Source of the DNA: Verrucomicrobiaceae bacterium
Lineage (GTDB): Bacteria > Verrucomicrobiota > Verrucomicrobiae > Verrucomicrobiales > Akkermansiaceae
Length of the DNA: 13,326 nucleotides
NCBI GenBank assembly: GCA_003820635.1
Contig: RPOS01000086.1
Coordinates: forward strand, 1-13,326
Direction: 5' to 3'
Part shown: piece after piece, positions 5,761 through 8,409 of the stretch
Layout of the letters: each line of letters begins with the position of its first letter
How positions within the stretch are numbered: position 1 is the stretch's first letter
Translations under genes and position numbers: made by a program
The notes under the pieces: model-generated
Seen by the model: only the letters and a program-made list of their open reading frames with translations
Database searches by the model: none
Told to the model about the DNA's origin: nothing

Positions 5761-8409
5761 TCAATGCATGCCGGCACGCATCAACGCCTCGCCCGTAGGT
5801 GAGTTTTTGGTTGTGCGGATGGTTTCCGGCGTTCCGGCGGTCACCAGGTTTCCGCCGTGATATCCGCCGCCGGGGCCGAGCTCGATCACCCAGTCGGCGG
5901 CGGCGATCACATCGAGATGGTGCTCCACCACCAGCACGCTGTGGCCGGCGTCGCGCAGGCGGCGGAAGGCGTCTAACAGACGTTGGACATCGCCGAAGTG
6001 CAGGCCGGTGGTCGGTTCGTCGAAAAGATAGAGCGTGTGCGGAGCCTGTGGACGGGCGAGTTCCACGGCGAGCTTGAGGCGCTGGGCTTCGCCGCCGGAG
6101 AGAGTGTTGGCGGCCTGGCCGAGTTTCAGATAGCCGAGCCCGAGATCCTCCAGCGTGGCGAGGATGTGGCGCAGCTTCGGAATGGGTCGGAAAAACGCGA
6201 GCGCTTCGCTGACTTGGAGGTGGAGCACATCGGAGATGGATTTCCCCTTGTAGGTCACTTCGAGCGTTTCGCGGTTGAAGCGCCGTCCATTGCAGGCAGG
6301 GCAGGGGACCCATGCGTCCGGCAGGAAGTGCATCTCGATCTTGAGCCGGCCATTGCCCTGGCAGCGCTCGCAGCGACCGCCCGCCGCGTTGAAACTGAAG
6401 CGGCCCGCGCCATAGCCGCGTTGCTTGGAGAGAGGCAGCTTGGTGAACAAGTCGCGGATCAAATCGAACGCGCCGGTGAAGGTGGCCGGATTCGAGCGCG
6501 GGCTGCGGCCGATCGGCGATTGGTCGGCCACCACGCATTTTTCGATGAGCTCGAGTCCTTCGATCGAGTCATGTTTTCCCGGCACTTCGCCCGAGTGGTG
6601 GAAATGCCGGGCGAGCGCCCGCCGCAGGATATCATCCGCCAGAGTGGATTTCCCGCTGCCGCTCGGCCCCGCGAGGCAAACGAGCCGCCCTAACGGAATT
6701 TCGATATCGAGATTCTTCAAATTGTGTTCCCGTGCGCCGCGGATGACGAGCTTGCCGCTCGCGCAACGTGGCGGCGGTTTGCAACCGCCATGCCCAACTT
6801 TCCCCCTCAACCATTCTCCCGTCGGCGAATCAATCTCCCCCGGCGCACCCGCCGCCAGCACCAAGCCACCCGCCGCGCCCGCGCCCGGTCCCATGTCGAT
6901 CACATGATCCGCCGCGCAGATGATGTCTTCGTCGTGTTCCACCACGACCACCGTGTTTCCTAAATCCCGCAGCCGGGTGAGTGCGCGGATGAGCCGCGAG
7001 GTGTCCGCCGCGTGCAGGCCGATGCTCGGTTCGTCGAGCACATAGATCACACCTGATAGACCGGCTCCGAGCTGCGTGGCGAGGCGGATGCGCTGTGCCT
7101 CGCCGCCGGAGAGCGTGCCGCTGCCGCGGTCGAGCGTGAGGTAATCGAGCCCCACTTCCTCCAGAAACGAAAGCCGCTTGCGCACATCGTTCACCAGGCG
7201 CTGGCAAACCTCCGCCTTGGAGGGATCGGCATGGAAACCATCCAGCCACTGGGCCGCATCGGCCACGCCCAGCGCGCAGAAATCCTGGATGCCCAGCCAA
7301 CGTCCGCCACTTCCTTCGATTTTCACCGCCAGCCATTCGGGCTTGAGCCGCCGGCCGCCGCAAACTTGGCAGGGACGATGGGCCATGAACTTGGCGAGCT
7401 TGCGCCGTGTGAGTTCAGAAGTGGTTTCCCGATAGCGTTGCAAGGTTTTTTCCGGGTCGGCACCTTCTTCCATCAAGTCCGGATCGCAGAACATTTCCGT
7501 GCCAAGGCCCTCGCAACCGTCGCAGGCACCGAGGTGCGAGTTGAAGGAGAAATGTTTCGGTGAAAGCTCGCCGACGATGAAACCCGTGCCCGGATTGCGC
7601 CACGATGTCTGGAAGCTGAGGTCGCGCCACGTATCGGCATCCGGTTCCTGCACCGCCGCGCGGGCCTCCACGCCGCAGAGCCGCAGCGCGGTTTCCACCG
7701 AGTCCGCCATGCGCGATTCCACACCCGGCCGGATCACGAATCGATCCACCACGATTTCCACCGACGGCAGCGAATCCGGCCATGATTTTCCCGCCTCCTC
7801 GATTTCGAAAACCTCGCCATCGATCCGCACCCGGATGTAGCCCTGCCGCTGGAGGTCACCTAACAACCGCGCCGGTTCGCGCAGTTCCTCTTCCGGCACC
7901 GGTGCGAGCAACATCACTTTCGTTCCCTCCGGCATCGCCGCGAGCGCATTGACGATGTCCGCCGCGCCCATGCGCTGGAGTCGCTCGCCGGTCTGCGGGT
8001 CATGTGGCACGCCGGCCGCCGCCCACAGCACGCGCAGGTAGTCGTGGATCTCGGTCGCCGTCGCAACCGTCGAGCGCGGGTTGAGCCCGCCGCTCCGCTG
8101 CTCGATGGCGATGGCCGGGCTGAGGCCCTCGATGGAATCGACGTCGGGTTTCTCCAATTGGTCGAGAAACTGCCGCGCATAGACCGAGAGCGATTCCACA
8201 TAACGCCGCTGGCCCTCGGCGTAGAGCGTGTGGAAAGCCAGCGAGGATTTCCCCGAGCCGCTAGGCCCCGTGATCACCACGAGTTTTTCGCGCGGAAGAT
8301 CGACGTCGATATTCCTCAGGTTGTGCTGCCGCGCGCCGCGGATCCGGATCGTTTCCACAGGGCAAGAGAAACCCGGAGAATCGCAGTTTCCAAGGTCCAA
8401 ACATGCCAT
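5761..8409 (-). CDS. uvrA: Excinuclease ABC subunit UvrA, shortened variant
   Basis: UvrA is the DNA-damage sensor ATPase of nucleotide excision repair and loads UvrB. This copy has 882 residues against about 940 in E. coli. Walker A motifs are GPSGSGKSS (48-56) and GPSGSGKST (581-589). ABC signatures are TLSGGEAQRIRLA (432-444) and TLSGGEAQRLKLA (769-781). Walker B regions are YVLDEPSIGLH (456-466) and YLFDEPTTGLH (794-804). The UvrB-binding region is present (MLLAPV, GYIRVRIDGEV, VEIVVDRF, about 140-235). The C-terminal zinc module is intact (C680/C683 and C703/C706). The insertion domain is nearly gone: only about 20 residues join GLGTEMFCDPD (301-311) to RYRETTSELTRRKLAKF, and about 78 residues present in E. 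coli are missing. The zinc module before it keeps C296/C299, but its first CxxC is replaced by TSWR near 269-272. The ATG at 8409 adds a 17-residue leader. A GTG at 8358 (VETIRIRGARQHNL) matches normal UvrA N-termini better. No Shine-Dalgarno sequence or LexA box is visible upstream. Confidence 0.95.
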   Translation of the reverse strand: MACLDLGNCDSPGFSCPVETIRIRGARQHNLRNIDVDLPREKLVVITGPSGSGKSSLAFHTLYAEGQRRYVESLSVYARQFLDQLEKPDVDSIEGLSPAIAIEQRSGGLNPRSTVATATEIHDYLRVLWAAAGVPHDPQTGERLQRMGAADIVNALAAMPEGTKVMLLAPVPEEELREPARLLGDLQRQGYIRVRIDGEVFEIEEAGKSWPDSLPSVEIVVDRFVIRPGVESRMADSVETALRLCGVEARAAVQEPDADTWRDLSFQTSWRNPGTGFIVGELSPKHFSFNSHLGACDGCEGLGTEMFCDPDLMEEGADPEKTLQRYRETTSELTRRKLAKFMAHRPCQVCGGRRLKPEWLAVKIEGSGGRWLGIQDFCALGVADAAQWLDGFHADPSKAEVCQRLVNDVRKRLSFLEEVGLDYLTLDRGSGTLSGGEAQRIRLATQLGAGLSGVIYVLDEPSIGLHAADTSRLIRALTRLRDLGNTVVVVEHDEDIICAADHVIDMGPGAGAAGGLVLAAGAPGEIDSPTGEWLRGKVGHGGCKPPPRCASGKLVIRGAREHNLKNLDIEIPLGRLVCLAGPSGSGKSTLADDILRRALARHFHHSGEVPGKHDSIEGLELIEKCVVADQSPIGRSPRSNPATFTGAFDLIRDLFTKLPLSKQRGYGAGRFSFNAAGGRCERCQGNGRLKIEMHFLPDAWVPCPACNGRRFNRETLEVTYKGKSISDVLHLQVSEALAFFRPIPKLRHILATLEDLGLGYLKLGQAANTLSGGEAQRLKLAVELARPQAPHTLYLFDEPTTGLHFGDVQRLLDAFRRLRDAGHSVLVVEHHLDVIAAADWVIELGPGGGYHGGNLVTAGTPETIRTTKNSPTGEALMRAGMH
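6773..6789. repeat. Palindromic hairpin inside uvrA
   Basis: GGCGGTT-TGC-AACCGCC is a perfect 7-bp stem with a 3-base loop, flanked by further GGC/GCC bases. It is read in frame as residues 541-546 within the linker KVGHGGCKPPPRCAS between the two ATPase halves of UvrA, a surface linker that is variable in the family. Its GGCGG/CCGCC core matches the gene-end hairpin at 4697-4719. It may be a dispersed palindrome that inserted without breaking the frame. Confidence 0.45.

Follow-up and report, generated by a model that had tools for sequence, protein, structure and literature searches.

Can a UvrA protein that lacks its insertion domain (ID) still act in nucleotide excision repair (NER), and how does such a protein come about in nature? 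The question is raised by a uvrA gene on contig RPOS01000086.1 of a Verrucomicrobiaceae bacterium (assembly GCA_003820635.1), the whole analyzed stretch of which, 13,326 nucleotides, is referred to here as the window. An earlier note, made from the letters of the DNA, had claimed that the encoded protein retains the UvrB-binding region and lacks about 78 residues of the ID. Both claims hold. The Pfam profile PF17760 (UvrA_inter, the UvrB-binding domain) matches residues 150-245 with 80.5 bits (1.1e-22, cut-off 23.3), and a Pfam search finds no match to PF17755 (UvrA_DNA-bind, the ID) anywhere in the 882-residue protein. Judged from aligned relatives, the ID-less architecture is genuine and conserved and recurs in Verrucomicrobiales and Planctomycetes, without being universal. 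The more interesting facts to emerge are the repeated loss of the domain and the asymmetry of a tandem partner protein.

The open reading frame (ORF) is complete and runs on the minus strand from an ATG at 8409 to a stop at 5763-5761. The elements on which the argument rests are the following.

5761..8409, minus strand: insertion-domain-less uvrA gene; TIGR00630 1097.8 bits (cut-off 729.8); structural model with predicted local distance difference test score (pLDDT) 85.3 and predicted template-modeling score (pTM) 0.74
8245..8268, minus strand: Walker A I, residues 48-55 (K54)
7990..8001, minus strand: zinc (Zn) module 1, first knuckle, ligands lost (D137, T140; HDPQTG)
7675..7962, minus strand: UvrB-binding domain PF17760, residues 150-245
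7693..7833, minus strand: UvrB/Mfd docking face R193, R223, R233, E239 (E. coli R176, R206, R216, E222)
7585..7596, minus strand: Zn module 1, second knuckle, ligands lost (N272, T275; WRNPGTG)
7513..7524, minus strand: Zn module 2, first CxxC, intact (C296, C299)
7438..7500, minus strand: 21-residue linker in place of the ID, residues 304-324 (a 99-residue stretch in close relatives)
7360..7371, minus strand: Zn module 2, second CxxC, intact (C347, C350)
7099..7113, minus strand: ABC signature I, LSGGE, residues 433-437
6646..6669, minus strand: Walker A II, residues 581-588 (K587)
6400..6456, minus strand: DNA-binding residues R652, K662, R664, R670 (E. coli R712, R722, R724, R730)
6292..6372, minus strand: Zn module 3 and hairpin (C680, C683, C703, C706)
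6088..6102, minus strand: ABC signature II, LSGGE, residues 770-774

As in class I UvrA, the protein carries two ABC ATPase modules, each with a Walker A and a signature motif, together with PF17760 and a TIGR00630 score above the cut-off; the NCBIfam score for NF001503 (1125.9) falls slightly below its cut-off of 1147. The class I features that it lacks are the PF17755 ID and Zn module 1. The features of class II UvrA (UvrA2) are reversed on both counts, with PF17760 present and the ID missing, and the note was right to describe it as the converse of the UvrA2 paralogs. A single UvrA module in 882 residues likewise sets it apart from the tandem (double) UvrA. Retention extends to the predicted fold, the two ATP sites, the residues of the docking face and of DNA contact, and Zn modules 2 and 3; the note's view that both ATPase sites and the C-terminal zinc module are intact is borne out by the Walker A lysines, the pair of LSGGE signatures, and Zn module 3. 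We take E. coli R176 and R206 to be UvrB/Mfd docking residues. The functional roles of E. coli K37, K646, R712, R722, R724, R730, R216, and E222 follow PMC3025350.

The extent of the loss is clear from the spacing between the GLG motif (303) and RYRET (325), which is 21 residues in the window protein and 99 in its closest ID-bearing relatives, a difference of 78. Among 119 near homologs, 79 are short and 40 are long in this region; the 80 loci on genome contigs, which were picked by similarity to the ID-less query, comprise 38 short, 40 long, and two unjudgeable fragments (L043, L079; L numbers denote loci and G numbers genomes). The two size classes do not overlap (at most 25 residues against 78-102). 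A frame error as the cause of the short form is ruled out by these short homologs and loci and by purifying codon evolution. Relocation of the ID within the protein, which the note had raised as a possibility, is excluded by the absence of any PF17755 match and by the model, in which residues 303-341 form one short strand and two helices. In Ecm16, the ligands of Zn module 2 are C176, C179, C296, and C299, and residues 183 to 293, including the ID, lie between them (PMC10192343). By this comparison, the ID position falls inside Zn module 2, between its two CxxC pairs. ID-less Verrucomicrobial single UvrA proteins have loops of 4, 10, 12, 14-16, 19, 22, 29, 34, 47, or 51 residues at that point, and in L020-L026 the entire domain is gone, with 4 residues left between the pairs. 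Several loop sizes therefore indicate several separate deletions.

The frequency of the ID-less form was assessed in genome samples drawn without the similarity bias of the 80 loci, although most relatives are metagenome drafts. Sixty genomes of the family, taken regardless of the ID, were scanned for PF17755 and PF17760. PF17755 matches the single UvrA in 43 of them, and alignment confirms an ID-less single UvrA in ten (G001, G016, G051, G059, G063, G065, G069, G099, G121, G142); the remaining seven (G096, G097, G111, G113, G114, G120, G135), several of which are small drafts, have no usable single UvrA. The form is thus not shared by all Verrucomicrobiota, as the note had considered it might be. 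In a sample of 48 genomes from the order, 34 single UvrA proteins match PF17755 and 14 do not, nine of the latter being confirmed by alignment and five (G073, G080, G086, G089, G095) assigned on the missing match alone. ID-less copies also occur in seven records named as Planctomycetes (L059, L061, L062, L068, L071, L072, L073).

The history of the loss was traced with FastTree or quick IQ-TREE trees, in which long branches were flagged; some clades (L118, L119) sit on such branches. The alignment omits five fragmentary loci (L028, L041, L043, L045, L079); L117, L127, and L128 failed the motif filter, the duplicates L102-L105 and L114 were dropped, and L087_s2 was removed before tree building. 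With the ID columns excluded, the tree of 137 UvrA modules requires 12 changes of ID state, of which 10 are forced by well-supported branches and 11 fall among non-tandem modules. The window and L001, both ID-less, cluster with the ID-bearing L027 and L031. For the 16 rows that share a 47- or 51-residue Zn module 2 loop, a single clade, and with it a single origin of their ID-less form, is rejected by the approximately unbiased (AU) test (p 0.0006, log-likelihood difference 130.5), which used a quick tree and a group picked after the first tree had been seen. Nucleotide identity between the window gene and L027 drops from 89% in the reference part to 62-68% at codons 301-340 and is low again (55%) at 381-400; RRKLAKFMAHR is among the residues common to the window and other ID-less clades. 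This pattern suggests, and fits, a recombinational exchange of the ID-less tract between lineages. Co-adaptation of the linker flanks would give a similar local divergence from L027.

The retained parts of the protein appear under constraint across the group. All 40 ID-less Verrucomicrobial singles have the two Walker A lysines and R or K at each of the four DNA-contact sites, and their docking face reads RRR followed by E (33) or Q (7); these key residues are alike in ID-bearing and ID-less singles. The ratio of nonsynonymous to synonymous substitution rates (dN/dS) between the window and L001 is lowest for the first ATP region (0.011), followed by the UvrB-binding domain (0.075) and the second ATP module (0.085), and highest for the signature I region (0.164). 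Median dN/dS is 0.155 for 138 ID-less pairs versus 0.25 for 131 ID-bearing pairs, in a comparison where pairs are non-independent, dS reaches 1.3, and the ID-bearing set takes in more distant pairs. The ID-less uvrA is under purifying selection.

The zinc modules call for a different account from the one first given. The note had regarded C296 and C299 as unpaired, their partner CxxC being replaced by TSWR. In fact, they align with Ecm16 C176 and C179, the first pair of Zn module 2, and they are not orphaned because C347 and C350 complete that module, which straddles the ID position; the equivalents of all four are cysteines in 138 of 138 aligned modules. Ligands are indeed replaced in the TSWR segment, but this site belongs to Zn module 1, where both knuckles have changed (D137/T140 and N272/T275). 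The E. coli ligands of this module are taken to be C120, H123, C253, and C256, on the basis of the alignment and of the module's absence from class II proteins. Both knuckles are altered from the CPxCG type to DPxTG/NPxTG or similar in Verrucomicrobial singles, ID-bearing and ID-less alike, and in 13 of the 14 N halves of tandem UvrA (exception L095), and all seven ID-less Planctomycete copies retain the module 1 cysteines. The knuckles are kept or lost as a pair, with the exceptions of five class II proteins and L100, in which the region is missing or poorly aligned. On this alignment, the Zn module 1 change occurs widely across the order, independently of ID loss.

A second UvrA accompanies the single one. 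Three UvrB-binding domains are present in 45 of the 48 genomes of the order sample and two in the other three, so that a single UvrA and a tandem double one appear to coexist in Verrucomicrobiales genomes. Such a tandem protein is also found in Chlamydia. The tandem ORFs span roughly 1,820-2,040 codons, counting in-frame codons upstream of the start, and NCBIfam NF001885 has 1,809 positions. Fourteen Verrucomicrobial tandem proteins (L081-L092, L094, L095) were read in halves. All 14 N halves have the ID and the docking face RRRE, and all have F or Y at the position of E. coli R730. The ID is missing from all 14 C halves, which leave 40-43 residues between the CxxC pairs of Zn module 2; none has the three docking arginines complete, and all have RRRR at the DNA-contact sites. 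By their residues, the halves look complementary, the N half holding docking face and ID, and the C half the DNA-contact arginines. The only Planctomycete tandem read (L096) is symmetric, with ID, RRRE, and R or K at all four DNA-contact sites in both halves. The single and the tandem UvrA genes lie close together on one contig in some genomes (L087 in G020; G035:C405).

Searches for a second ID and for photolyase covered 50 of the 80 loci. In genomes of relatives with an ID-less single UvrA, as distinct from the window's own, an ID is found elsewhere in 32 of 34 (25 of 27 Verrucomicrobial, 7 of 7 Planctomycete). In the Verrucomicrobiales carriers, it sits mostly in the tandem N half, and in a few of the 25 (e.g., G002, G018, G034) in a short ORF at a draft contig edge and not in a full tandem frame. 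G059 and G063 each have one ID-less single UvrA and one tandem UvrA on one contig (3.18 and 2.65 Mb, respectively). The closest relative, L001 (92% identical), has extra UvrA pieces on two contigs, one of them ID-bearing, which look like a tandem UvrA split by assembly.

Together, these results favor, with a probability of about 0.58, an active NER-type UvrA that has lost its ID naturally and discriminates damage weakly, the loss being tolerated as another UvrA retains the domain; we propose that the presence of this ID-bearing UvrA is what allowed the loss to recur. The dimer would bind DNA via signature domain II and the Zn module 3 hairpin and, given the conserved docking residues, would still hand UvrB to DNA, while damaged and undamaged DNA would be poorly told apart. 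The window UvrA would then work mainly where the lesion is otherwise marked, or as an auxiliary loader, and the ID-bearing UvrA would carry out the genome-wide search. Engineered deletions of the ID give conflicting results, from which its role has been argued. According to PMC3025350, E. coli UvrA with residues 290-400 deleted discriminates damaged from plain DNA less well, incises ultraviolet (UV)-treated plasmids more slowly, and shows a template-strand repair bias, deletion of the UvrB-binding domain leaves no detectable repair, and the authors conclude that the ID is less important in transcription-coupled (Mfd-directed) than in global repair. The window protein lacks the corresponding domain and retains the parts on which the two pathways depend. 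By analogy with this deletion and from the kept motifs, the window UvrA is probably active with altered damage recognition, so that the note's proposal to this effect stands as a probability. Specialization for transcription-coupled repair would be an unproven extension.

Several observations weigh against this favored account. The signature I region evolves faster than the remainder, with dN/dS up to 0.541 for the pair L003-L016, and no ID was found anywhere in two carrier genomes (G011, G025) or in G076 of the order sample. ID-bearing close relatives possess the same tandem UvrA; among 27 genomes of both kinds, Mfd and UvrC are each found in all 27 (26 scoring above the cut-off) and UvrB in 24. 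The tandem UvrA, UvrB, UvrC, and Mfd occur in ID-bearing genomes too, and therefore none predicts ID loss. Ecm16 without its ID does not bind DNA (PMC10192343), so the window protein might bind poorly. Conversely, PMC3025350 reports that B. stearothermophilus UvrA without the ID is not impaired on short duplexes, and the domain may thus be less important than supposed. The latter result equally serves a possible, if rather doubtful, alternative in which this is an ordinary housekeeping UvrA: UvrA and UvrB would together discriminate damage without the ID, its loss being nearly neutral and free of specialization. The alternation of ID-bearing (L027, L031) and ID-less (window, L001) singles among close relatives, with identical key residues, agrees with this account, whereas the discrimination lost in the E. 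coli deletion does not. Neutrality would also not require an ID elsewhere in the genome, as seen in 32 of 34 carriers, which is a weak test since the tandem is general in the order.

The other candidates fare worse. It is improbable that the ID-less UvrA acts on lesions to which photolyase is already bound. E. coli with ID-deleted UvrA reportedly depends on photolyase to survive UV (Wagner 2011), and PF03441 matches occur in 25 of 27 ID-less Verrucomicrobial genomes; since they are equally common in ID-bearing relatives (15 of 16) and present in only one of seven ID-less Planctomycete genomes, photolyase does not track ID loss and was dropped as a correlate. Decay towards loss, with the tandem UvrA taking over the work, would agree with the second UvrA, the repeated losses, the long L118 and L119 branches, and the seven family genomes with no usable single UvrA (several being small drafts); purifying selection and the motifs intact in 40 of 40 singles make it very unlikely. 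An accessory class II protein (UvrA2/DrrC/Ecm16-like) outside NER would match the variant architecture and the absence of Zn module 1, and is nevertheless next to untenable: the UvrB-binding domain, absent in class II, is present, and the class II members L093, L099, L115, L129, and L130 carry the ID and form a separate clade.

Beyond the favored reading, the pattern suggests a division of labor in DNA repair. Tentatively, the UvrA job could be split in Verrucomicrobiales between an ID-deleted UvrA for Mfd-directed UvrB loading and an asymmetric tandem for genome-wide search, its UvrB docking face and ID residing in one half and its DNA-binding arginines in the other, with the ID-less allele moved by recombination in addition to separate deletions. 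A tandem UvrA with docking and DNA-binding residues divided between its halves bears on the idea of dedicated global and transcription-coupled UvrA proteins. Furthermore, the natural, repeated deletions have ID-bearing sisters of up to about 87-89% identity, which makes for ready test pairs for ID function.

Some observations lie to the side of this argument. The window also holds recA and two M42 aminopeptidase genes (227-1360, 2481-3593, and 9197-10288, all on the minus strand). None of the 80 loci, L001 included, has a flanking ORF in common with the window (frames of at least 150 codons, E at most 1e-30, identity at least 45%), and gene neighborhood was dropped as uninformative since the flanks are unmatched; ORF 8002-9183 matched many loci solely through antisense overlap with uvrA. 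The UvrB profile match breaks at around position 402 in each of the 23 matched Verrucomicrobial genomes and not in the Planctomycete G040, and in one UvrB (G007:C46:15551-17653) about 48 codons between the match pieces represent an insertion or a diverged segment. In G020 (G020:C30:5192-6646), G063, and G040, the three genomes with both pieces listed, the UvrC profile match stops at about position 230 and resumes at about 365, with only 50-60 bases in between, and more than 100 residues of the UvrC middle appear to be missing. Some genomes encode a further class II-type UvrA without the UvrB-binding domain and with an ID stretch of about 120 residues (L093, L099, L115, L129, L130).

In the open-access (PMC) literature, to which the search was confined with most subscription papers outside it, no description was found of a UvrA that naturally lacks the ID and has a UvrB-binding domain, and known systems resemble the window protein in part. 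It shares with class I UvrA (E. coli, B. stearothermophilus 2R6F) the two ABC ATPases, the UvrB-binding domain, Zn modules 2 and 3, and the docking and DNA-contact residues, and differs in the missing ID and the lost Zn module 1 ligands. The engineered E. coli UvrA lacking residues 290-400 (Manelyte 2010, PMC3025350) misses the same domain and keeps the UvrB/Mfd docking region, whereas the window form, known from sequence alone, is natural and conserved, has a linker of its own, and belongs to a lineage whose relatives possess another, ID-bearing UvrA. Class II UvrA (D. radiodurans UvrA2, Ecm16, DrrC) shares the UvrA core with Zn modules 2 and 3 and is its mirror image, retaining the ID without the UvrB-binding domain. 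The tandem double UvrA of Verrucomicrobiales is likewise ID-less in its C half, but it is a fused pair, and that half lacks the UvrB docking residues that the window protein retains.
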